From positions 23,676,101-23,740,100 of the forward strand of contig JAJEKV010000011.1 in NCBI GenBank assembly GCA_021234155.1: a stretch of DNA of 64,000 nucleotides, given 5' to 3'. Positions 10-49,567 of this stretch are shown here, piece by piece. Both the position numbers and the translations under genes were made by a program. The DNA comes from Isoetes taiwanensis (lineage: Eukaryota > Streptophyta > Lycopodiopsida > Isoetales > Isoetaceae). The notes below the pieces were generated by a model that was not told the origin of the DNA, searched no databases, and saw nothing but the letters and a program-made list of their open reading frames with translations. Positions within the stretch are counted from its first letter, which is position 1. Every line of letters begins with the position of its first letter.

Positions 10-1071
10 CTATTGCAAGGAGCCAGGTAAAGGGTCAAGCAAAGCAGCCACAGCCTGGTCCTGATCAAGAGTCATTTCTCCCCAAGGATCAGCATATTCG
101 GGGTAGGATGACAGAGGCAGACTCGCAGGTGGAGCCTGAACTTGATAAATATTCTGAGCTTCCTCAGAATCTGTGTCTGAGAGAGAGGGTTCAGCATGTT
201 CAACAGAAATGATCTTGCCTGTTTCCAAGTCCATGGTGGCATTGAGGTGACCATCAGTGATGACCAACTGATCCGTGGCCCAATAATGGATACTCTTGGC
301 CTGGCGGAGAAAAGGTCGGCCAACCAACATTTCATAATCACCAGGATCTTCGCCAGCCTTCCAAACTCCAAATTCCATGGGGAATCGGAGATCACCGATG
401 TTGATGTGAAGAAGAGGCGTGACGCCTTGAGGTCTGGTGATATGGCCATTAGCCAACTTGATGTCATATGGGGCACGAAAGAGTTGTTTGATGCCCATTT
501 GTTTGCGGAGTTTATCCGTGATGAGATTGACTGCGCTACCTCCGTCTATTTGAACATGGTTGACTTGCTGATTACCCACCGTGGCATGGACCGTGGGTGT
601 AGAGGTAGCCACAGCCCCAACTAAAACAGTTGGGAGTGGTAACTGGTCCTTGAGAGCAGGACAGAGTTTCAAAATGGTTGCCAAGCTTAAAGGAATTTTG
701 ATCTTGGCTAGCTCCTCTTGGAGTTCCAGAGGCACATGAGAAAAAGGATCTGCTGGTTCCACGGGTGCTGGAGTGCGTGGTAGTGAAGCAGCAACTTCTT
801 TGAGTAAGTCAACCTCTGCAGCAATATTGGGATATGTCTGAGAGCGTGGAGGTTGAGATGTGGAAGGTGTATCTTGTCTTTGTTGAGCTCTGGTGGTGGC
901 ATGAACATTTGCTAGCGTGCGGCCTTCAGCAGCTTGCATGAGATTCAAAATGCTTTGGCGAACTTTAGGCATGACATGTGGCATGAGTTTCTCCAAGTCA
1001 GGTGCAAAATGAACCTTTTTTTCTTCCTCATGAGGAATGGTGTCAACCGCAAAGGCGGGGTTGCGTGCCAT
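10..1071 (-). pseudogene. Ty3/gypsy-like retropepsin region of pol (partial)
   Basis: An open frame of 353 codons. Its middle holds an aspartic-protease active site of the plant gypsy type (IDGGSAVNLI), followed by a flap and C-terminal region of pepsin-like fold (LVGRPFLRQA). The protease would cut the element's Gag-Pol polyprotein. The reading frame leaves the window on the left, where reverse transcriptase and integrase would be expected. It overlaps the preceding gag/zinc-knuckle frame by about 130 bases in another phase. That could be a programmed frameshift or decay; in-frame breaks elsewhere in the element favour decay. The family assignment is firm, the intact state is not. Confidence 0.75.
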
Positions 1072-1856
1072 TTGGAATAATGGTCAAGGGGCGTGGCACG
1101 CCCAGTGCGGCGTGAAACCAAACCAACCCAATTTGATGGCTGAACTGGAGGGTTTAGTGCCTGAAAAATTTCTTCCTGTGCTTGTTGATCCAGCTGAGGT
1201 TGATTTGCAGGAGCTGATTGATATCGTGATTGCTTTGGCGCGCTAGGGTGGCTTCTTGAGAACAGGGGCCGGCCTTGTTTGCCATTAGCAATCCAGAGTT
1301 GGTAAGCCGTGAGGCAGACCGATGTGGTCTGATTGGTGCCAGGAAGCTGTACCTGAACTTGTGGAAGTTCAGGGCACGCCGTGGTGGTATGACCCCATTC
1401 TTGACAGTGGTAACACTGAGCTTTTGAAGGATCAAAAGGAGGACGTGGGTTTGGTCCCCGTTGTTGCTCCTGTTGCTGATAGAGTTGATTCGGTTGCGCT
1501 AGAAGTGGTGGCTGCTGATAGTGCGATTGTTGCTGAGGTGTTGTTTGCACTTGATAAACGAGTTTGTTGCGGAAAGGCGTGGGATGAGTGCGAGTGCACT
1601 CTTCCGTGGCATGATTGCACATGTTGCATCGCTTGCAATGAGGCGGGCCATTGGTTGAGTTGCACTCATTTGCCAAATGGCCTTGGTATTTGCAAATATG
1701 GCACCAGATCTGACTGCGCTGTGGATTGGCGTGTTGAGGCTGGACAGTCGTCTGTGGAACCATGACAGGTGGAATGAAAGGGAGCTCTTGAAGAGCCACG
1801 CCACGGGAGGAAACATTGGCCCGAAAGTGATTGACAAGGTCGATAGCCCGCTCCAA
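945..1856 (-). pseudogene. Gag C-terminal part with three CCHC zinc knuckles
   Basis: Three CX2CX4HX4C knuckles are visible in order: CHICKYQGHLANEC, CKRCNMCNHATEEC and CYHCQEWGHTTTAC, separated by glutamine- and proline-rich linkers. Such knuckles bind retrotransposon RNA in the nucleocapsid. The frame continues the gag domain found just to the right (1988-2812) after a short stretch with stops. It runs into the protease frame on its left. The order gag, knuckles, protease reads right to left, so the element is on the minus strand. The breaks between frames suggest an inactive copy. Confidence 0.75.
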
Positions 1857-11582: not shown

Positions 11583-12300
11583 GTACTATTTGATTCTTGT
11601 TTCTCTATTTTGTAGCTAATTTCTTAACCACTGAGGTCATAGCAGCTTCTTATTATATTCAATTATTATGTTTATCTTTAGCTACATAAATTAATTTTTA
11701 GTTGTAGCTACATGGAGTTGAAGTAGTTGTTGTATTCATAGTTAGAGGCATGTTGTTGTAAGGTATAATTGCATGTTTTAAGCCAAAGTTGAAGCTCATA
11801 GGTAGAATCATGTAGTTATGAGTTGCAGCTACAAGCTTAAGCTTAGTCACATGTTGTAGTTGATATTTACAACCATTTTGATTATTCCAGTTGCAGGTGC
11901 AGATTGCAGCTGGAAGCTTACAGTTGCTTGTTGCAGATGCACCACACCTTACTAGTTACAGTCTCAGTCTTAGCCATAGTGCACCATGCCTTAGTAGTTG
12001 CAGTTTCAGTCACAGTCATAGTGAGAGAGTGTATCAGGAAGTTACAGCTTGCACCTTGTGTCTTCTAGCTCAAGTCACAGCTTGCAGCTTGTGTCCTATA
12101 GTTGCAGCTTGTGTCATATAGTTGCAGCTTGTGTCCTTTGCCATCGAGATGCTCTGAAGCTATAGGCCAAGCTTTTGCAGATCACCATAATGAGCACTCA
12201 AACTCTTGCTGATAGGCTGGTTAATCTTCTAGCCCATTGACTGATGTAATTCAAGTTTATTCACGTCTAAAGCAATAGAGCAAAATGTTAGAGCTTTCTT
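11583..12300. repeat. Intronic/intergenic low-complexity run of TTGCAGCTTGTG-type repeats
   Basis: Between 11,890 and 12,140 short variants of AGTTGCAGCTTGTGTC(C/A)T and AGTCTCAGTC(T/A)TAG recur in tandem. The 76-codon frame over it is a translation of the repeat and carries no domain. Confidence 0.55.
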
Positions 12301-12731
12301 TCTTTATACTATTGCCCAGCTGTGTCATGGATGGTGCAGAACTAAAGCACCTCAATCATACAAAGTTAGCTGTGTTGCGTCCGAGGGCAAGGGATCTTTT
12401 AGATTGGTGTTTGGAGCACTTTGAGATTGCTGTTTGGACAAGATTGAGCAGCACGGCGGCCAATCTTATTATTAATCAAATGTTTCAACAAGCTGTCAAA
12501 CAGAAATTACATTTTACTTGGTCTTCAGGAAAGTGCACAAACACATCGTTCAAGATTGATAGAAAGCCTATTATGTTGAAGGAGTTGAGCAAGGTATATC
12601 AGGAATCAAAGGGAGTGTGGAATGAAAAGAATACATTGTTAATAGATGATATGCTGTACCATGGTTTCAAAAACAGTCTGCATTCAATGGTATGTCCCAA
12701 TACTTACCAACCATCTCGAATAGATGGTGAC

Positions 12732-13084
12732 CAGTGTTGCAAAAATACGCGTATTTTTTGAAAATGATCCATTCCGTACCGTACTTGTACGTACGTACGT
12801 ATTTTTAAAAAATACTTCTGACGTTTTTTTTTTAAATACTACTTGTTTTTCACAAAACAGTAAACTTGCACTTACCAAGAATTGAACCTGGGCCTCCTAG
12901 ATAGCAAACTAACAAGCTAACCAACTTCCCCTACATCAGTTTTACGTTTTACTTCACTGTTTTATTCTATTTAAACACTGTTTTTTGATTTTTAAAAAAT
13001 ACTCCAAACGTACGTAAGGTACGTATGGCTGAAAAAAACGTATTTTTTAAAAAATACGTACAGTACGCGTACGGGACAACACTG
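12732..13084. mobile_element. Nonautonomous hAT-like element (353 bp) with 8-bp TSD
   Basis: The element begins CAGTGTTG and ends CAACACTG. It is flanked by a perfect 8-bp duplication ATGGTGAC (12724-12731 and 13085-13092), the hallmark of hAT insertions. Inside both ends are dense CGTACG/GTACGT motifs resembling the subterminal repeats hAT transposases bind. It has no coding capacity. A second, longer member of the same family lies at 24591-25383. Confidence 0.88.
12863..12937 (-). other. tRNA-like segment inside the hAT-like element
   Basis: On the minus strand the segment holds an A-box-like TTGGTTAGCTTGTTAG and a B-box-like GGTTCAATTCT. It can form a 5-bp T stem (CCAGG/CTTGG) around a TTCAATT loop. 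The acceptor stem is not convincing, so I do not call a functional tRNA gene. It may be a captured tRNA or SINE head. Confidence 0.45.
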
Positions 13085-40460: not shown

Positions 40461-40512
40461 GGTGATGTTTGTACTATTCATTAGCACGTGATGTTTGTAC
40501 TATTCATTAGCA
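40461..40512. repeat. 25-bp tandem duplication next to the MULE
   Basis: Two direct copies of GTGATGTTTGTACTATTCAT plus TAGCA lie immediately left of the target-site duplication of the 9-kb element. Confidence 0.8.
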
Positions 40513-40529
40513 CGTTTGCACAAATGCAA

Positions 40530-40592
40530 CGAGGTCTTTTTTGGCTCCCGAAATCGGGGTCCCCCGCGGACAGAAATCGCTTAAGCGATTTT
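40530..40592. repeat. Left terminal inverted repeat of the MULE
   Basis: It pairs with 49496-49558. The match covers GCTCCCGAAATCGGGGTC, a GCGGAC block and the first palindrome copy. It includes an internal small palindrome CCCGAAATCGGG. Confidence 0.88.
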
Positions 40593-40995
40593 GGGCTGGA
40601 AAATCGCTTAAGCGATTTTCCGGCCTGAAAAGGGCGCGCCGGAAAATCATCATAAGGGGAAAAAAAAAAAAAAACAGGAAATCGCTTAAGCGATTTTCGG
40701 CTGGCGCGTGCGCAGGCCCCGCGCCCCTGCCCGCGCGAGGCCCGAGGCGCCCGTGGCCTGCCGCACGGCCCTGGCCGCACGAGGCCCGAGCGCTGAAAAT
40801 CGCTTAAGCGATTTTCAGCCTGCCGCACGGCCTGGCCGCAGCGGCGCGCGGCAGCCGAGAGAAAATCGCTTAAGCGATTTTCAAAATCGCTTAAGCGATT
40901 TTCAGGTTTTAGAATCGCTCATATTTGAGGTTTCAGGTTGAAGCGATTTTCAGGTTTCAGAATCGCTCATATTTGAGTTTCCAGGCTTAAGCGAT
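40574..40995. repeat. Left palindrome array (six exact copies plus half sites)
   Basis: Exact AAATCGCTTAAGCGATTT copies start at 40574, 40601, 40679, 40797, 40863 and 40884. Most extend to GAAAATC...GATTTTC. Half sites (AAGCGATTTTCAGG, TTAAGCGATTTTCACG) follow near 40,940 and 40,987. The array sits between the left end and the first plus-strand exon at 41,349. Confidence 0.95.
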
Positions 40996-41348
40996 TTTCA
41001 CGTTTCCATAAGGTATTTAATATGTGCCCATTTGTATTTGTATTGTAGATTTTGTGCCTAGATTTTGTATTCTTTAATATGTGCCTGCATTTTGTATTCT
41101 AGATTTTGTATTCTAAATTTTGTATTCCAGATTTTGTCTTGATATGCCTAGATTTGTCTTGATATGCCTTTGTTGTATTCTAAAACCATGGGCCTTTTGA
41201 ACCATTGCCATTATAACCATGGTCTTGAGTAAGTTGAACATATTCTGACTTCCTTCTTTATACACCCTACCTTCATATGTTGTTTATGATAATTAGATTT
41301 ACTTTACTAACAACACATTCGGCATATTCCCCAAGCAGGCATTACAAA

Positions 41349-41971
41349 ATGGCAACAGGTGACCGATGGGGCAGAGATCTTACGCAGGAGAGCCGCCCGA
41401 TAGGGATGGACGAGAGTGGGCTCCCGGATTACGTCAACCGCGGACAGCCGGGCGAGGTTGGGTACATCACTTTTTGGTAAGTACCGTCAGACCCCCATTA
41501 GATAGCTTGCATAGTTGTGTCTCTAGAGTTTTTTCATTTGTACTTGCAGGTTGTATTTATGTCTCTAGAGTTTTTTTCATTTGTACTTGTATGTTTGACA
41601 GGGAATATCGAGGCATATGGTCGACCGGTGCGCCCGGGCCCCCAACAACGGCCCGTGGCACACATAGTTTGGGCACTTACTGGTACTGCGACGCACCCGG
41701 GTGTCCCCATACAGCGGACAAGGTACGGGTGAATCGTCTGTGGGCAGGTCTGACGAGGGACGGTGCCATTGGGCACCATAATGCATATCACAGAGATATG
41801 TGGTGGCCATTGAGGGAACGTGGTCGTCCCAGGAATGACCCTTCGCAGCCATCCCCTCTCACAGATGAGGAGAGGGAGCCCCTCAATGAACCGGGCACGG
41901 CAGGACAAATGAACGGCAATGGCAAGAGCGAATGTAATCAAGGGCGGCAGTGCGAGACAAGCGTGCTTTAA
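41349..41971 (+). CDS. N-terminal exons of the MULE plus-strand gene, zinc-finger-like
   Basis: Exon 1 (41349-41476) starts MATGDRWGRDLTQESRPIGM and ends at a GTAAGT donor. Exon 2 starts at 41,602 after TTTGACAG and joins in phase (ITFW, EYRGIW). It encodes CDAPGC followed 23 residues later by HHNAYH, a possible C2H2-like metal site with a long spacer. It ends in an acidic region (LTDEEREPLNEP). The frame closes at 41,971, and connection to the protease part downstream passes through an unresolved stretch. It could be the DNA-binding N-terminus of the Ulp1 gene or a separate small gene. Confidence 0.6.
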
Positions 41972-42471
41972 CGAGGACGATCAGTCCGTATGTAGGCTCC
42001 ATGCCCAATATTTCTTGCTAGTCTGGCGGCATTACCCCGGGCCGGGCGATGAGGCATTGGACACTGACTCCGGCCTCAAAGATCAGGGCATACGTGAGGT
42101 GGTGCACCCTCTATACCTGCAGGAGGCGCGGGTACGCTATGATCATCAGGACGCAGCCACCGAGGAGGATCTCGATGAACGCGTCTGGTGATGAGTGGAT
42201 GAGCCAGCCCGGATGTCGCAGAGCCCCTCCCACCTACACCCGGAGATCATGGAGTATGCAACAAGGCCGGGTGCGGGAAGAGGAGCAAAAGAAGGGGGGC
42301 ATTATCGTGCGGAGAGCAGCCACCGTCGCGAGAGCAGCCACCATGCGCGAGCATCCATCGCATGCGAAGGGCGGCGTTGAACCCACACTATGGAGAGCGT
42401 GACACGGCGCTATAGCTTTGAACACAATGATTTGCATTTCGCTGGCATGTCGTCCCTCCGCGGCATAGCAC
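41972..42471 (+). other. Unresolved part of the MULE plus-strand gene
   Basis: Two plus-strand frames (41919-42191 with RLHAQYFLLVWRHYPGPG; 42049-42402) look protein-like but shift phase. I could not choose splice sites. They may be exons or frameshifted remains between the zinc-finger-like part and the protease. Confidence 0.4.
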
Positions 42472-44092
42472 GCCGACCCGACAGGGCCATTCTTACGTCC
42501 GCCCGAGACGAGTCCCTCAGCGGCTATTGAGGACATACCAGACGACCTGTTCATTCACACGCCACCTCCACTGCATGTGATAGAGCCTCGTGCTTCGAGG
42601 CCGATCTTTGATGAGCTGCGGGAGAGCGGTCGCAGCACATACGCTCAGATTATACAGGAGGAGATGGTTCGTTCCCCTAGCTTGGCATCATTGGTTTCAC
42701 CTTTTCCTCCGGCTGCAGATGCACATGACCGATACCGGTGGCATAGGGACAGGGCTAGAGGGTTCTTTCTGTACTGGGATGGAGTTTGGGGCAGGGCACA
42801 GCTTTATGCCTACTATTTGCTGCAGCCGTTGCGGGGGTGGGCCGGAGGTGGCAGAGAGGCACAGTATGCACGAAACATTGTGCTACATCCGGGTTTGATG
42901 TTGCCTCTCTATTTCTGGGAGGAGGTTTATATTTTTGGGGACTCGTACACAGACGAGATATGCCGCGAGGTATGGCGAGCGGTTGATAGCACACCACCCC
43001 CACGTACCCACAGAGATCTTGTCGACTCGGTCAGAACGCAGAATGTCATTGTTGGGGCCAGCTTCCTTGCGGCGTTGGATGCGAGAGCAGACAGAAGGCA
43101 ATCGTTGCGAATCAGTGAAGAGTGGGAGGCAGATCATGTCAGGGTAATTATCAGGTACGTGTCCTAGCACGATTTCATTCATGTGTTGTCAACCTTTTTC
43201 GCTGACCATGTAGCACGCATGTGCAGTGCCTGCATGCATCAGTTCCAACCAGATGATAGATCCACATTTGCAATGGTGGACCCTCGCTGGTTCGAAGATC
43301 ACGAGATCATGGCCCTGGACCTGCTCCCACAGTACCAGATACGATGGGAGAGCTTGCGAGCTATCATTTGGCCCATCTGTCATGGGTACGTGGCATAGTC
43401 CCTATCCCCTCTCTTGTCTCCATAGGTACTCATGCAGTGTGAGCTGGTTGCAGGGGACACTGGTACGTTCTGGTGCATATTGCAGACCCTGTAGTACGGG
43501 AGAGACTCGGGTGGCCCAGGCGTTTCGAGGGCTTTTGGTGCATGGATTCCCTGCCTGGCAGGGTGGGCCATACCGGGACTCAAATACGAGTGCAACCCGC
43601 GGACGTACAACGGTGAGTTCTTTGCCTGCTGACTTCCTTAATTTTAGTTGTCTTCAATGCGTGCAACAAGTCCTTACCGTGTTGGGACAGGGTATTGCAG
43701 CCGTGGCTGTACCACACTCATGCCCCGGACCACTGGCGCGAGCGTTTCAGAAATCGGTTGGAGCTGCGGCGGGCGCCAGTCCCAGCACAGAACCAGCATT
43801 GGTCTTGTGGTGCCCATGTCTGTCTAAACATCCGGCATGTCATGAAGGCTTTCCTATGGCCAGAGACAGACATAGACTTGCAGGTTGGACTCTATCCCTC
43901 CCCACCACCTCATTAATCAGTTATATATGCCCCGCATGACATCCGAAGCCTTTCACCTTGCAGGTACGCCCGAACATGCATACCGACGAGGATGTGGCAC
44001 GGCTCAGGCGAAACTTCTTTACACTCATTGCTTGCCTGTACGCGAAGGCATATTGGTTCAACTACCAAATAATGAGGCGTGCCGGCCCCTAG
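42472..44092 (+). CDS. Ulp1/C48-like cysteine protease encoded in the MULE
   Basis: Five exons splice in phase: about 42472-43154, 43227-43385, 43454-43612, 43691-43883 and 43964-44092 (stop TAG). Exon 1 encodes a tyrosine/tryptophan-rich domain (GRAQLYAYYLLQPL, LPLYFWEEVYIFGDSYTDEI). Exon 2 encodes STFAMVDPRWFEDHEIM and WESLRAIIWPICHG. Exon 3 places the catalytic His in GGHWYVLVHIADP and the Asp in FWCMDSLPGR. Exon 4 has the oxyanion Gln and nucleophile Cys in AQNQHWSCGAHVCLNI. All four catalytic signatures of C48 SUMO/NEDD-type proteases are thus present in order. The role in MULEs is not established. The start is uncertain: an in-frame stop lies just before 42,472, so an upstream exon is likely. 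Confidence 0.8.
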
Positions 44093-44167
44093 TGTACTTT
44101 TTACTATGCAATAGAAACATTGTCATTGATTTAAATGCCATGTACCATCCACATCATCACCGAGTGA

Positions 44168-46187
44168 TCAGTCAAATCTGAGGCGACGCCAGGTCGACCC
44201 TCTCCTCCCACGTGGCCGCGGCGGCGTTTCGCGTTGCACAGAGGCTACACGACGTGGCGTTGAAAAGTTACGCACCCGTGCTCCCGCCTGCTGAGTTGCA
44301 TAGCCCCCTCGCATTGGGACGTTTCTCGGTGCCGCCGCATCACGGAACGCCCTTAGGCGACGTCGCACCTCCGCAAGCAATGGAGCCAGGTCTTCCTCGT
44401 CTATGTGTTCTTGGTTCATTACCTCCGTCTGCCAGTATTGCATTTCCTCGCCCATTGCCTGCAACCACTGACTAACCACCAATCTCAACGTGTCTTCGTC
44501 CACTACAGGTGCCGGTGGCCGCTCGATGTGCTGGAGCTCCGCTTCCCGTCCGGGATATAGCACTTCGAAGAGTTGGGGACGGTACCTAAAGAGAAACATA
44601 TCTCCTGCTATGAGGTGCTTGCACACTGGGACATCAGCGGGACAGGTGCAATAGTGCTGCATCATCAAAACCGTATAGCGGACCCCATCATCTGCCCCGG
44701 ATGCGATGGACAGTTCAACGGTCTCGTCGTCCACTACTGTGATTGTGTTTGCATCTCCCTCAAACCGTTGCAGCAGATCTTGTGCACCTGCACGTCGTTT
44801 GCGATAGGATCGCGGGCTGTACCGGCCGAAGTCAGCTGAAGCAAAGGGAAGGGAACGTGATTAGAATGGAAGAGCATTCTTAACTATGTGCTTTGCTAGA
44901 GACATACCTAGGCTCCAACGCTCCCTGCACCGCGTCAAAATTGTGCCTCCCGGGGGATCATCACCATTTGGATATCCTACTAGCGAACAAATTAGAGTGT
45001 ACATCCGCAGGTTAACCTTGCAACCCAAAGTTTGCACCTTCAACACCCTCCAATGGGCCTCCACGTAGTTGGTAGTGTCCATGTATCCATGGGGCCACAA
45101 CCTCTGGTGTCGCTGCCATTTCCCTTCCCACACGCCGCCCCACAACCAGTTGTGGGCAAGATAGCTGGGGATGCCAGGTGTATTGCTGCACGTCAACTAC
45201 GAAACGATATTTCTAATCAATAGCTCGACAAAGACACTTACTCGAAGATCTCGGCACTGTTACCATAGGCATTGTAGAAGTGATTTTCCAAGTGCTCATA
45301 CCGCTCCAGGTCGGGCTCCAACATGAGATTAGATAGCCTTTGCCAGACATCTTGGCGTATGAGCGGGTCTTGTATCCTCGGCATGAGGTTGTCATGCCAT
45401 GCTCGCTTGCAATGGAACCAACAAGATATGACACAGCCTGCGATCTGCACGAGCATTACATCTAGGAAAACGCAAATAGTGACAAGCAAAGTTCTTTACA
45501 CCTTTCGCCGTGCTTCGTTGAAACAAGATGGGTCGCAAGCTGCCTCTTCTATGGCCACTCTCTCCTCTCCGTCCATGTCAATGGTGATGGACCTTGGCCT
45601 TACATGCCCCATCCGTTCAAACACCAGTGTAAGCGCTTTTCGTAATGCATTCTTTGTCTGCTGCGACCCCTTCTTATGTGTACACAGCATGTAGAAGACT
45701 GGATATCCAACCCCGCATGCAACTGGAACCACGGCTGCGTAGAGCGGTATCCGCCACATGTTGGTGCCGAATGTCGAGTCGAGGGCCCACCCCGAGTTTT
45801 GGCTGTACTGTATCGCCGCCCTACGCATAGTGTCATCTTGCAGAACTAGGATCCATGGGCGGCGTTCCGGATCCGCAGCGTGAGCCGCGAATGGCTGGTG
45901 GTAGAGGACCTTTCCTGCATGTGCCCAGCCCTCTATGTTCTCCTCAAGGCTGTCCCAGTCGGCCATTGCGCCACCGCCTGAAACATAGTCACGTTCGAGC
46001 CAAGGCAAGTGAGTGCGCAGACAATTACAAGCCTAATTAGACATGACATTCGCTCACCAAACATTCGATACTTGTTGCAGAGACGCCACACATCCTCCTG
46101 GCTCATGTCAAACCGATATGTGACGCGCTCGACTGCCGTGGTCTCCTCCCTGAGCATGGGACCCACTGCCTTCGCCATGTCCCACAC
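44168..46187 (-). CDS. MULE transposase (central and C-terminal exons)
   Basis: Minus-strand exons with in-phase junctions: about 46187-46058, 45977-45502, 45444-45242, 45185-44908 and 44835-44168. The DDE core is visible: the first Asp in GWALDSTFGTNMWRIPLYAA, the second in RPRSITIDMDGEERVAIEEA, then the joined CFNEARRKIAGCV and FHCKRAWHDNL, and the Glu in MDTTNYVEAHWRVLK. A SWIM zinc finger (YCTCPADVPVCKHLIAGD) and an arginine-rich tail (RPRGRRGSTWRRLRFD) follow. The protein cuts and joins the element ends in the nucleus. All five exons are open, so this part looks functional. The N-terminus further right is not resolved. Confidence 0.85.
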
Positions 46188-47320
46188 AGCCTTTGTCTGC
46201 CGTTTCCGCGTTTCTCATTAAGCGCACGGCTCTTTCTATCGAGATTAGGGTGAACCGGTAGAGACCACCTCTCGCGCTTACAGATGGATCGTGCCGGAAT
46301 GCACTGGCGCCGCAAATATCCGAGTCCGCTCACCGTCCTCCGCGCGACCATTCGGCGTCTTGTCGCGAAGCCTATCGTCGCGACAACGTCGCGTGACTCC
46401 TCCGGACACGCTTTGGAAGTTGTGGGCTGCGCACGGGATTCCTCCACCACGGTGGCGGGCAAAATCATCCACCCTCATCTGCCGGGCCCACCCCCGGTCA
46501 CGATCGCGGCGTGTGGATGTGCACAAGGCGGACCGCGGTCTCGCTTTTGCACCTCTCCCACTCGATGTCGGTCACGGGCGGCGGATTGCTGAGTCTCATG
46601 TTGAGGGAAGTCATTATCCTTCATGTACATGCGAACCTTGCAACCGCACACACGCAGAGCACCGGGTCACGTATTCGGCGGGATCCCGGTGCCGCTATAT
46701 CTGTCTCCCAGCGTGATCTTATTTCTTCTAGGGTCTGCGTCTTGACAAGTCGTTGGCCATTGGCAATGTGGCACTGCGCCACTAGATTGTTCAATCCTCT
46801 ACCCAAGGCACACACTTTTTAAGGATCGCGATCCCACCCTATGCAAATAGGAAACATGACCGAGCGACTCCCGCGTATAGCCCCTCACGGTATTGCTCCC
46901 CACCGTCCCTCATATCTATGCCACTTTCGGAAAGAACATGCACATGCGGTCTGCGTGGAAGGGGAGGAAAATGCGGGTCTGCGATCCCGATGTCGCCGCG
47001 GATCACGGGGTCTACCTTCGTTGGCGGAAGCAATCATAAGATCATATGTTGCTTTCAAGAACACATACCCATGCATGGAACTCCTCGGGCCCGTTCTTTG
47101 CCTAAGCCGGTCGCCGGATCGGGATACATCCGAACCACCTCACGCACAACATTGGAACCACCGGGGGCCGCGAGGTGCACTTGTGGCAACGGACGGTTGT
47201 AGAGCAATGCGGCATCTGAATGGTCGGATGAATCCTCCCAATAGTCGCTATTGCCATCATCCGGCTTCGCTCAAAGGAACCCTCATCCTCATAATCAATC
47301 CGACATTCTAACAAAGCCTA
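46188..47320 (-). other. Unresolved N-terminal region of the MULE transposase
   Basis: Several overlapping minus-strand frames (for example YVFLKATYDLMIASANEGR near 47,060 and LVAQCHIANGQRLVKTQTLE near 46,780) are GC-rich and protein-like but shift phase. An acceptor-like GGCAG precedes the first clear exon. The MULE N-terminal domain is expected here; small introns or frameshifts cannot be told apart by eye. Confidence 0.45.
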
Positions 47321-47435
47321 TCAAACAAAAGCCGCACTATGCTTGGGAGAACTTCGAACTAACTTCTGGCGGATCGGCTTAAAGCGCTCCTTTCACGCAT
47401 ATGGTAGCCCCAAAGGCTTGTTTTATATTGAATGC

Positions 47436-47589
47436 AAAATCGCTAAGCGATTTTCAAATTTTTTTTTTTTTTCCTCCTACTTTTCGGTGACGACAGACCT
47501 TATCTTCGAAAATCGCTTAAGCAATTTCGTATTTTTTTTGGGCAGGTGATTGCTGACAGGCTGACACGCGAAAATCGCTTAAGCGATTT
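47436..47589. promoter_or_regulatory. Palindrome cluster upstream of the transposase
   Basis: One exact AAATCGCTTAAGCGATTT at 47,572 and two variants (CGCTAAGCG near 47,440; GCTTAAGCAATTT near 47,510), separated by poly-T tracts. The cluster lies between the presumed transposase start and the next ORF. Confidence 0.8.
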
Positions 47590-47830
47590 TCAATTTTTTT
47601 TTTTTTTTTTCCTCTTGCTTTCGGCACTGCATATGCTTTTATAATGAAATTGAGTGAAAACACTTATGTGCACTGACCACGAAATTACATAGATGTCAAA
47701 AATTTTTGGTGCTACTCTCAAATGTTTCGTATTCTTTCACATGAAGAAAATACATAGGTCTCACAAGACATGGCTAATTCAAACAAACATACTACATAAT
47801 ACACAACGTATAATAGAAAACACCAAAGCT

Positions 47831-48331
47831 TCACTCTATGCCCACTTCAGCCTCGATGAGATCCTCCATATCGAACTCATCAATATGTCTTCGACTGTAC
47901 AGATCCGCCCAATCATCCAGCTTCTTGATAGAATGACCACTGCTGACGATGAGCTTGTTTACCATAGCCCCGCATAGTCTTTTTTGCTTCTTGTAAAGCT
48001 TCTTAAACACAGGTCGGAACGTATTGTGCATCCAAACCTCCTCCATCTTCAGCAGCCTTTTTAGTGCCTTTGCCCTGTAAATAAGGCGTTTAAAAGATAT
48101 GAGGCACTCCTCCAGCTCCCCCTTACTGAGTTGTTCCTCGTCGCCATTCCTTATGAACCCATCACCTTGGAGGAGCTTCGTGAATTGGGCGCTAACTTCT
48201 CTCGTTCGGATCTGGCTCATCTCGTTTTGTACCTCCAGCTGCAACTGATTCGCATGGGCTAAGATTGGCCCACTAATATGAGACTGCATTTCGGTGATGG
48301 TGTGTCCCCGTCTGCGCCTTGTTTCGGCCAT
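47831..48331 (-). CDS. MULE accessory ORF B, about 166 aa, unknown
   Basis: Starting at the ATG at 48,331 (MAETRRRRGHTITEMQSHIS) the frame runs to KKLDDWADLYSRRHIDEFDM and an acidic end. It is rich in lysine, arginine, glutamate and leucine with helix-forming stretches (ELEECLISFKRLIYRAKALK). It has a clean stop and palindrome clusters on both sides. I do not recognise a family. Position in the element and GC texture like its neighbours favour a real accessory gene. A role in binding DNA or the transposase is only a guess. Confidence 0.6.
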   Translation of the reverse strand: MAETRRRRGHTITEMQSHISGPILAHANQLQLEVQNEMSQIRTREVSAQFTKLLQGDGFIRNGDEEQLSKGELEECLISFKRLIYRAKALKRLLKMEEVWMHNTFRPVFKKLYKKQKRLCGAMVNKLIVSSGHSIKKLDDWADLYSRRHIDEFDMEDLIEAEVGIE

Positions 48332-48502
48332 TTTGAGTGTTCTGAAAAGAATGTAAGAGAGCACGAGGAGCAAAAACCCTATAATCTTACCCTATCAAAC
48401 AAGCTGCAAAAACGAGGAGCAAAAACCCTATATTCTTACCCTATCGCGAATCGCTTAAGCACTCCTTTCACGGAACACGCATGTTTATTTTATATTGAAT
48501 TG

Positions 48503-48579
48503 AAAATCGCTTGAGCGATTTTCAATTTTTTTTGGAAGGTGATTGTTGACATGACACTTGAAAATCGCTTAAGCGATTT
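48503..48579. promoter_or_regulatory. Palindrome pair upstream of ORF B
   Basis: A variant (CGCTTGAGCG, near 48,503) and an exact copy at 48,562 with poly-T on its right. They lie 170-250 bp before the ORF B start and directly behind ORF A. Confidence 0.75.
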
Positions 48580-48632
48580 TCAAAATTTTTTTTTTTTTTC
48601 TTCGTTTTTTTTTTCCCATTCATAAAAGCAAA

Positions 48633-49031
48633 TTACACATTGTCTTTGTCCATCCCCAGGACGTGACAATTTAACGCAACCATTTGCATCATTATCTGCA
48701 CATTTAACATCGTTTCATCTCTGTTTGGCTCGTTGAGCCATTCTACCAGTCGTTCGCTGCACGGAACGCCCGACGTTAAAGCAGTGACAAGCTCCCTTTC
48801 ACTCATTCTTGCGACGATGGTGAAAGGAGCGGCAGAAGCAGGGGGGTTGCTGTCCCTTGGAGGAGGAGCAGGGGGATTGCTGATGATGTCCCTCGGAGGA
48901 GGAGGAGGAGGCGGATTACTGGTAGAAGGGACATATCGTGCCCACACGGTCTTTAACTGTCGGACCATTTCAACAAGATAGGCAGGGAGATTAGAACTCG
49001 GATTAGAGGCGCGCTTTGACGCATATGGCAA
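48633..49031 (-). CDS. MULE accessory ORF A, about 132 aa, proline-rich
   Basis: It begins MPYASKRASNPSSNLPAYLV, followed by a short helix (VRQLKTVWARYV), a polyproline linker with repeated PPPRD(I/S) units, and a C-terminal helical part (ERLVEWLNEPNRDETMLNVQ, MQMVALNCHVLGMDKDNV). No domain is recognised. It lies first behind the right palindrome array on the minus strand. The two-helix-plus-linker layout would suit an adaptor or DNA-bound protein, but that is inference. Confidence 0.55.
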   Translation of the reverse strand: MPYASKRASNPSSNLPAYLVEMVRQLKTVWARYVPSTSNPPPPPPPRDIISNPPAPPPRDSNPPASAAPFTIVARMSERELVTALTSGVPCSERLVEWLNEPNRDETMLNVQIMMQMVALNCHVLGMDKDNV

Positions 49032-49117
49032 GCTGTTTTTTATAAAAAATTTGAAAAAAACTTACGCGATTTTCAAAATTTTTTTTTTTTATTTTCCCTG
49101 CCGACACTGACACGCGA

Positions 49118-49514
49118 AAATCGCTTAAGCGATTTTCAAATTGCTTTCCTCTTGCTTTCGGCGCTTACTTTCGGCGCTGACAAGGCCGAAAATCGCTTAA
49201 GCGATTTCTGATTTTTTTTTTTCACCTGGGCTGACGGACCGATCGCTGACGGACGCTGACAGCCGAAAATCGCTTAAGCGATTTTCGATCGCTGAGCTGA
49301 CGGATCGATCGCTGACGGACGCTGATAGCCGAAAATTGCTTAAGCGATTTTCGATTTTTATTTAAAACCACCTGGAGGTGAGCCGAGTTTCCGGTAACGG
49401 AAAACGAAAATCGCTTAAGCGATTTTCACCTTCCCCTTTGAAAATCGCTTAAGCGATTTTCGCAAGTGCCCGAAAATCGCTTAAGCGATTTTCCCTAAAT
49501 CGCTTAAGCGATTT
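49118..49514. repeat. Right palindrome array (seven exact copies plus one variant)
   Basis: Exact copies start at 49118, 49190, 49267, 49408, 49442, 49474 and 49497, and a variant with ATTGC lies near 49,332. Spacing near the end falls to 23-34 bp. Duplicated GACGGACGCTGA(C/T)AGCCG spacers show local amplification. The array lies upstream of ORF A. Confidence 0.95.
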
Positions 49515-49558
49515 TCGTCCGCACGAGACCCCGATTTCGGGAGCCAAAGAAGGCACCG
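49496..49558. repeat. Right terminal inverted repeat of the MULE
   Basis: Inverted partner of 40530-40592, with the same GACCCCGATTTCGGGAGC block. Its outer end abuts the imperfect 9-bp duplication. Confidence 0.88.
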
Positions 49559-49567
49559 CAAACGCAA

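Follow-up and report, generated by a model that had tools for sequence, protein, structure and literature searches.

A 22-bp palindrome at the termini and TATA boxes of a Mutator-like transposon family in Isoetes taiwanensis

A 22-bp palindrome is present 20 times, as 15 exact copies and 5 variants, in a complete Mutator-like element (MULE) of Isoetes taiwanensis, where it lies at a set distance inside both termini and next to the TATAAAA boxes of three putative promoters, and in the loci sampled it is confined to one element family. MULEs rank with the most active transposons of plants and, to our knowledge, the cooperation of their accessory genes and noncoding repeats is understood for few families. 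On the basis of its sequence context, the palindrome is probably a dimeric recognition site for a protein of the element, serving both transposition and the co-regulation of the element genes.

Results

The window, which is the whole stretch of 64,000 nucleotides that was analyzed, contains a MULE of 9,029 bp (40530-49558) delimited by terminal repeats and a target duplication (Table 1). The duplication is 9 bp long, with one mismatch between CAAATGCAA and CAAACGCAA, and perfect duplications of 9-10 bp were found at L012, L013, L016 and L020 (594-1,292 bp) as well as at L017 (3,380 bp, with transposase fragments). Clear inverted terminal repeats on both sides of family members, target duplications in the 8-11 bp range of MULEs and an RNase H-like transposase of MULE type identify the class of the element. 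The transposase matched ZSWIM1-3_RNaseH-like at 28.2 bits against a cut-off of 27.2 (25.8 bits with a longer hand-joined protein), its MULE domain was detected at E 0.001, under the family cut-off, and four relatives at 36-39% identity carry PF10551.

Table 1. Features of the Mutator-like element and its palindromes, in window coordinates.
Feature	Position	Strand	Remarks
Left target site duplication	40521..40529	+	CAAATGCAA, 9 bp
Complete Mutator-like element	40530..49558	.	9,029 bp; terminal repeats, target duplication, MULE-type transposase domains
Left terminal inverted repeat	40530..40593	+	contains outermost palindrome 40572-40593
Left cluster, six palindromes	40572..40903	.	18-mer starts 40574, 40601, 40679, 40797, 40863, 40884
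Single half-sites beyond left cluster	40941, 40989		
Plus-strand gene, multi-exon	41349..44092	+	N-terminal Cys/His-rich segment, C-terminal Ulp1-like (Peptidase_C48) domain; exons joined by eye
Transposase gene, multi-exon	44168..47330	-	upper limit approximate; RNase H-like MULE domain (exon about 45499-46005), SWIM-type motif
Transposase promoter module (putative)	47421..47591	-	TATAAAA 47421-47427; proximal 21-bp palindrome 47435-47455; palindromes 47508-47529, 47570-47591
ORF B	47831..48331	-	166 aa; no Pfam family; related full-length ORF also outside element family
ORF B promoter module (putative)	48488..48581	-	TATAAAA 48488-48494; palindromes 48502-48523, 48560-48581
ORF A	48633..48968	-	111 aa from first ATG downstream of TATA box; no Pfam family above cut-off
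ORF A promoter module (putative)	49038..49137	-	TATAAAA 49038-49044; degenerate proximal palindrome 49053-49074; distal 49116-49137
Right subterminal cluster, seven palindromes	49188..49516	.	last one inside right terminal repeat
Right terminal inverted repeat	49495..49558	-	contains outermost palindrome 49495-49516
Right target site duplication	49559..49567	+	CAAACGCAA, 9 bp; one mismatch vs left

Three further genes accompany the transposase. The plus-strand gene encodes a Peptidase_C48 domain (E 1.9e-5, 25.1 bits against a cut-off of 20.7, exons joined by eye), which was the single Pfam match of the hand-joined protein when its two halves were scanned with an E threshold of 1; a weak Ulp2 match around the catalytic Cys had E 0.23, and no protein relatives were found among the 8,000 candidates scored. 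ORF B gave no Pfam match and no protein relatives among 27 candidates scored, and for ORF A the one Pfam match, to Calcipressin, was under the cut-off.

The 18-mer AAATCGCTTAAGCGATTT, the inner part of the palindrome, occurs 15 times in the window, always within 40574-49514. The five variants, which also lie within the element, differ from it by one mismatch each at 47510, 48504 and 49333, by four mismatches at 49055, and by one missing central T at 47435, which gives a 21-bp form. Searching with the 22-bp form GAAAATCGCTTAAGCGATTTTC at up to 3 mismatches returned 18 matches in the window and none in each of 100 dinucleotide-preserving shuffles. Information content drops steeply beyond 22 bp, in flanks that are otherwise unrelated; in this profile the inner 18 columns were ascertained by selection and the flanking columns were not.

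A preliminary description had already reported fifteen exact copies with at least four variants, and its count agrees with ours, as does its placement of the clusters: one between the plus-strand gene and the left end, the others upstream of the three minus-strand genes, at 47.4-47.6 kb for the transposase, at 48.5-48.6 kb for ORF B and from 49.05 kb to the right end for ORF A. Its span of 40574..49514 holds all exact copies, but the element itself is longer. All palindromes of the window element fall outside the inferred genes, and some are local duplications, namely tandem units at 66-bp and 48-bp spacing and the promoter modules. No common helical phase was found in the spacings, as judged by eye. 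The 10-mer CGCTTAAGCG occurs in 42 papers, with no transposon paper by title among the 20 matches listed.

Genome-wide, the exact 18-mer was found 769 times in 1.66 Gb, with no matches for the reversed control, and nearly all sampled copies come from a single element family. The terminal repeat has 181 genomic matches when up to 2 mismatches are allowed. The earlier statement that the motif occurs only inside this element therefore holds within the window and not for the genome. At 28 loci identified through the terminal repeat, a set apart from the window's own two loci, 113 exact copies lay inside element sequence (34,288 bp) and none outside it (50,524 bp). A motif common across the genome without relation to the element, which would have spoken against the preliminary description, was thus not borne out in the loci sampled. 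The exact 18-mer was located between bases 26 and 150 in 26 of these 28 loci and absent from those bases in two, one of which (L041) had no exact copy anywhere in the stretch examined. Among 17 loci picked by motif, one (L006) showed no element similarity by either method.

This distribution bears on the idea that the palindrome is a site for a host transcription factor, exploited as a strong promoter or enhancer module with no binder encoded by the element. Such a factor would be consistent with palindromes adjoining TATA boxes and with the CTGACA box, which adjoins a palindrome in all five of its occurrences in the element (eight others elsewhere in the window have none). However, a host factor should have targets in the host, whereas the exact motif was absent from the 50.5 kb outside element sequence around the 28 loci, all but one of the motif-picked loci had element similarity, and short copies retain their sites at a constant distance from the ends; we regard this explanation as improbable.

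The position of the palindrome at the ends is largely fixed. Of 37 ends scanned over bases 26-75 only, short derivatives included, 32 have a palindrome that starts 42-43 bp from the terminus, usually followed by a second copy starting about 23-33 bp further inward. In 13 of the 28 terminal-repeat loci the two ends lie no more than 1.5 kb apart; 12 of these loci hold at least one exact copy, and none of the 13 gave a BLAST match of at least 150 bp to the gene region. The retention of the palindrome at a fixed terminal distance in such short derivatives, which have no recognizable genes, suggested a function in transposition first.

Within the element, the proximal palindrome is separated from TATAAAA by 7-8 bp in all nine putative minus-strand promoters compared (three copies), which is a sharper placement than the position in front of the element genes noted previously. 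The three modules are paralogous and share the order palindrome-spacer-palindrome-TATA. The proximal palindrome of ORF A, degenerate in the window copy, is perfect in four of eight aligned copies. A search for the palindrome-TATA composite across the genome at up to 2 mismatches gave 63 matches and none for the control; 59 of the 63 keep TATAAAA, and at least two are right-subterminal sites with TTTAAAA instead (C907:43872302 and C1081:2919957). Three composites per element were found in C1075, C1038, C1072 and C919:7.37 Mb, and the window gives just one, since changes have occurred in two of the three palindromes next to its TATA boxes.

Between the three modules, palindrome columns are 88-93% identical compared with 60-62% in the remaining aligned columns (A-runs excluded), although the palindrome columns were picked by motif likeness, which biases the comparison in their favor. 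Between copies of the element, the palindromes are kept no better than other noncoding columns (0.828 vs 0.809, with 0.828 for random 22-bp blocks; the right part was compared in eight copies, and its first stretch in four), and the share of the modal 18-mer was 66/100 vs 0.621 for noncoding blocks (P = 0.30). Between-copy conservation was consequently rejected as proof of selection. The other seven aligned copies each have a disrupted ORF A or ORF B, so that these copies may be decaying neutrally, and the conservation test itself gives no sign of selection.

These comparisons also concern the proposal that the palindromes have no protein partner, and either form cruciforms or are duplicates that slippage and gene conversion have multiplied. 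The local duplication of some copies and a between-copy conservation not above background would fit it. The higher identity of palindrome columns in the duplicated modules, with its selection bias, and the sharp 22-bp edges within unrelated flanks argue against it, and a spacer-less palindrome of 22 bp is short for cruciform extrusion. We consider this account very improbable.

Discussion

In the dimeric-site reading that we favor, the palindrome 42-43 bp inside each terminus, together with its usual second copy, would be part of the transposition end, and short gene-less derivatives would keep it for that reason. The copies that lie before the plus-strand gene and directly upstream of the three minus-strand TATA boxes would be operators, making the expression of the element genes depend on how much binding protein is present. 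The TATAAAA boxes are presumed promoters, and binding, dimerization, the sign of the regulation (repression or activation) and a requirement in transposition are likewise predicted. The likeliest binders would be the transposase or the plus-strand Cys/His-Ulp1 protein.

ORF B was weakened as the main candidate binder because L055 has a full-length ORF B without palindromes in the 1.3 kb examined (dN about 0.087 and dS about 0.145 relative to the window copy). The ORF B stretch alone was covered by at least 12 genomic matches, L055 among them, at 86-91% identity, nine spanning query positions 306-1043 exactly, one 312-1043 and two 383-1043; this count is a lower bound, with 40 of 1,243 first-look candidates scored.

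The preliminary description had likened the array to the motifs bound by VANC anti-silencing proteins, and a VANC-like role is possible. The comparison is strengthened by the Ulp1 domain of the plus-strand gene, a domain that some Arabidopsis VANC genes are reported to carry (PMC13317346), but is at odds with the palindromic form, since VANC21 motifs are reported to be arrayed in one orientation (PMC5735166), and with the short copies. In a rival reading, the array would be primarily a VANC- or Kaonashi-like target, the plus-strand Cys/His-Ulp1 protein binding noncoding palindromes and demethylating family copies. An Ulp1-domain gene opposite the transposase, as reported for KI-MULEs (PMC2528002), would suit this reading, as would the reviewed action of Ulp1-carrying VANC genes on noncoding-region motifs (PMC13317346) and the position of the window palindromes outside the inferred genes. 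CpG observed/expected ratios, an indirect indication of methylation, point the same way, being 0.97 for the element and 1.28 for its noncoding parts minus exact palindromes, whereas the flanks have 0.54 and 0.37. However, the broken relics L014 and L008 also have ratios of 1.05 and 1.09, so that youth or base composition may account for the high CpG of the element. CpG transitions show a modest excess in relics, of about 1.5- to 4-fold depending on direction and pair. Additionally, Pfam found Peptidase_C48 alone in the plus-strand gene, VANDALs are reported to have degenerate terminal repeats whereas the present family has clear ones (PMC10398659), and a fixed terminal site in short copies better fits transposition. 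Altogether, a primarily anti-silencing array appears unlikely.

A bolder form of the dimeric-site reading is that one dimeric regulator, the plus-strand Cys/His-Ulp1 protein, reads the palindrome at the ends and at three promoters, in an operator-type regulon joining transposition, gene control and silencing escape, independently of VANC. We offer it tentatively and think it doubtful on present sequence evidence.

One sharp motif marks the ends and TATA boxes of full elements and occurs in short derivatives, and its fixed places in both make roles in mobility, gene control and silencing separable by point mutation. The function of MULE Ulp1 proteins has been called unknown by a recent review (PMC13317346); an Ulp1 gene in a palindrome-bearing element offers a place to ask what they do.

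Amongst known systems, MuDR/Mutator shares the MULE type of transposase, the 9-bp target duplication and ends that combine transposition signals with promoters, its terminal repeats being reported to contain both transposase sites and promoters (PMC3310237). Its transposase MURA is reported to bind one conserved motif of about 32 bp, whereas the window element has its 22-bp palindrome 20 times, variants included, and also at internal promoters.

The VANDAL and KI elements are likewise described as MULEs with extra genes and motif arrays in noncoding parts (PMC5735166, PMC2528002, PMC13317346). The Ulp1 (C48) gene opposite the transposase is a Kaonashi trait that the window element shares (plus vs minus strand, exons joined by eye). 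Kaonashi elements are non-TIR MULEs, and VANDALs combine degenerate terminal repeats with motifs in a single orientation; the element described here instead has clear terminal repeats and palindromic sites, and no further Pfam domain was detected.

Subterminal repeats (nine 12-bp units) are reported for Muta1 and related MULEs of Aedes aegypti, together with many non-autonomous derivatives of variable repeat number, but these repeats are tandem and lie inside the terminal repeat (PMC5225508). Internal promoter copies and an Ulp1 gene are not described in the accessible part of that source. The fixed palindromes of the short derivatives are closer to the subterminal repeats of Muta1 or Spm/CACTA elements than to VANC motifs.

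Spm/En and Tgmt* are reported to repeat one short motif many times close to both ends, with a motif-binding regulator and defective copies that keep the sites; TNPA of Spm binds to the subterminal repeats and acts as a regulator of its own element, and inverted motif copies in Tgmt* are able to form palindromes (PMC2613891). The present family has the same array near both ends, kept in defective copies. In Spm/En and Tgmt* the palindromes are assembled from separate repeats, and TATA-abutting copies at several internal promoters are not described in the accessible text (PMC2613891). These elements belong to the CACTA superfamily, with a 3-bp duplication, unlike the window element, which with its 9-bp duplication and MULE transposase is not a CACTA element; the likeness is one of the way of working.

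The palindrome array and its element

The palindrome array put forward in the preliminary description is real, and it is more organised than was described there, with copies at a fixed terminal offset and others adjoining TATA sequences. Its inner 18-mer, AAATCGCTTAAGCGATTT, has 15 exact copies in the window, all within 40574-49514, and the 22-bp form GAAAATCGCTTAAGCGATTTTC gave 18 matches at up to 3 mismatches and none in 100 dinucleotide-preserving shuffles. With five variants, the palindrome totals 20 sites in the window, all inside the Mutator-like element (MULE). Two lone half-sites, AAGCGATTTTC, also lie in the element, and none was found elsewhere within the window.

Features of the window
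Feature	Position	Strand	Remark
Retroelement gag-type aspartyl protease similarity	13-1083	-	under Pfam cut-offs
Exon, NLI-interacting-factor phosphatase similarity	12279-12758	+	above Pfam cut-off
Perfect 26-bp tandem duplication	40462-40513		directly outside left end of element
Element	40530-49558		flanks CAAATGCAA/CAAACGCAA
Lone half-sites	40941, 40989		
Plus-strand gene	41349-44092	+	
Transposase	44168-47330	-	
Palindrome variants	47435, 47510, 48504, 49055, 49333		47435 is 21 bp
ORF B	47831-48331	-	
ORF A	48633-48968	-	

The ends of the element were set by comparing family copies. Perfect 9-10 bp target duplications surround five related loci (L012, L013, L016, L017 and L020), as detected by a script trying offsets up to 3 bases and lengths of 8-10; the offset was zero in four, and L017 needed 1 base. 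The duplication GAATCAAAG, common to the insertions L013 and L017, perhaps reflects a target preference.

Pfam profile matches identified the minus-strand gene as a MULE-type transposase with a SWIM-type motif; the SWIM and MULE matches fall under their cut-offs, and an RNase H-like match was above its cut-off in one scan and below it with a longer, hand-joined protein. Four relatives of 36-39% identity were found among 8,000 candidates scored from 5.8 billion proteins. The plus-strand gene, its exons joined by eye, carries a Peptidase_C48 (Ulp1) domain (E 1.9e-5), and its protein matches Ulp2 weakly around the catalytic cysteine (E 0.23). No Pfam family matched ORF B, and none matched ORF A above cut-off. 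The ORF B stretch (47625-48362) recurs on its own, the remainder of the query being absent, in at least 12 scored matches (86-91% identity), and a full-length 166-aa relative lies at 300-1040 of L055, a fetched locus with no palindromes. Because of this palindrome-free relative, ORF B is possibly a captured gene, or one that another element also has, and its candidacy as a palindrome binder is weakened.

Genome-wide distribution

The 18-mer has 769 exact copies in the 1.66 Gb assembly, where its reversed control has none. Seventeen motif-picked regions, covering the first 50 of these places in contig order, held 52 exact copies; with palindromes and homopolymers masked, 15 showed similarity to the element, some in the terminal repeat only, and a sixteenth (L015) has ends of the element's type, though degenerate. 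Unlike these 16, L006 holds a single palindrome by itself, without element similarity.

Because these regions had been chosen by motif, a second search used the terminal repeat alone; allowing up to 2 mismatches, it gave 181 matches, against 0 for the control. The first 30, all without mismatch, were examined, and 28 were counted after the window's own two (L032, L033) were dropped; L038 and L039 are opposite ends of the same element. These 28 loci contained 113 exact 18-mers in 34,288 bp of element sequence and none in the 50,524 bp outside it, and 26 carried one in bases 26-150. Across almost all the loci sampled, the motif is thus confined to a single MULE family, L006 being the exception.

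On contig C907, three same-orientation terminal-repeat matches of an identical variant (43376249, 43378987 and 43381716) lie about 2.7 kb apart, possibly element ends arrayed in tandem. The genome holds a second copy of nearly full length, at C963:609114-618096 (L038, L052, L039), which shares about 87-91% identity with the window copy and has broken ORF A and ORF B frames.

Fixed position at the termini

Bases 26-75 were scanned at 37 ends, including the window's two and loci L022-L024, which overlap the motif-picked sample. The palindrome (up to 6 errors) was present in 36 of the 37, starting at offset 42-43 in 32, and the exact 18-mer in 24. Both ends lay within 1.5 kb in 13 of the 28 terminal-repeat loci; 12 of these short copies retained at least one exact 18-mer, and none matched a gene region by BLAST over 150 bp or more.

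Promoter-like modules

The transposase, ORF B and ORF A each have a putative promoter region upstream; the three align as a single module, in which a distal palindrome is followed by a GTGTCA box, a spacer, an A-run, a proximal palindrome and finally TATAAAA. Between the proximal palindrome and TATAAAA lie 7, 7 and 8 bp in the window and in L053, and 7, 7 and 7 bp in L054; in both L053 and L054 the aligner matched the transposase module's middle palindrome to the distal ones of the others. With A-runs excluded, identity among the three modules in the three copies was 88%, 92% and 93% in palindrome columns, a figure inflated by their choice for motif likeness, and 62%, 60% and 60% in the remaining columns.

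With up to 2 mismatches allowed, the composite of palindrome and NATTCNATATAAAA matches 63 times across the genome (control 0), and 59 of these retain TATAAAA; those at C907:43872302 and C1081:2919957 are right-subterminal sites with TTTAAAA instead. Elements on C1075, C1038, C1072 and C919 (7.37 Mb) have three composites each; in the window copy two of the three proximal palindromes are altered, which leaves a single composite. Among eight aligned copies, the ORF A-proximal palindrome is degenerate in the window (49055) and perfect in L053, L054, L025 and L029. All five CTGACA sequences in the element (47553-49262) adjoin right-half palindromes, with eight more elsewhere in the window; CTGACA is possibly a second box of the same complex.

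Conservation between copies

The right part was aligned in eight copies (window, L053, L054, C963 from joined L052 and L039, L025, L029, L036 and L043), of which only the first four extend to the transposase promoter. Pairwise identity was 0.828 in palindrome columns, 0.809 in other noncoding sequence, 0.828 in random 22-bp noncoding blocks, 0.897 in ORF A and 0.909 in ORF B. The modal 18-mer was retained in 66 of 100 instances; across 609 noncoding blocks the corresponding share was 0.621 (P=0.30). Since palindrome columns match background conservation, this comparison gave no evidence that the palindromes are under selection. The seven non-window copies may evolve neutrally, as ORF A or ORF B is broken in each. 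The outermost palindrome core is intact in all eight copies, most of which were picked by an intact terminal repeat. The element has a CpG observed/expected of 0.97, and its noncoding sequence clear of exact palindromes has 1.28; the ratio is 0.54 and 0.37 in the two flanks, and 1.05 and 1.09 in the relics L014 and L008.

Proposed mechanism and known systems

The palindrome is a perfect dyad that spans about two turns of the helix and is repeated with sharply defined edges where the surrounding sequence is unrelated, a form that a dimeric DNA-binding protein would read; the transposase and the plus-strand protein are candidates. Its presence at 43-64 from the terminus, in short copies as well as full ones, suggests a component of the transposition end, and its abutment on TATA at three promoters suggests an operator, a putative role for which it is well placed. 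Through both uses, a single protein could monitor element dosage and control how much transposase and accessory protein is supplied.

MuDR ends combine a MURA site with promoters (PMC3310237). TNPA binds the subterminal repeats of CACTA elements and regulates the element that encodes it; in Tgmt*, such repeats can give palindromes (PMC2613891). VANC21 recognises YAGTATTAY in one-orientation arrays in noncoding DNA (PMC5735166), and Ulp1 is carried by some VANC genes according to a review (PMC13317346). Ulp1-bearing MULEs are described from Arabidopsis, grapevine, melon and rice (PMC2528002), and the Aedes MULE Muta1 has both subterminal repeats and numerous non-autonomous derivatives (PMC5225508). 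The literature searched, which covered few subscription journals, yielded no TIR-bearing Ulp1 MULE in which a perfect palindrome occupies fixed end sites and also three TATA promoters. Subterminal recognition arrays are already known, and the palindrome array is a variant form of them.
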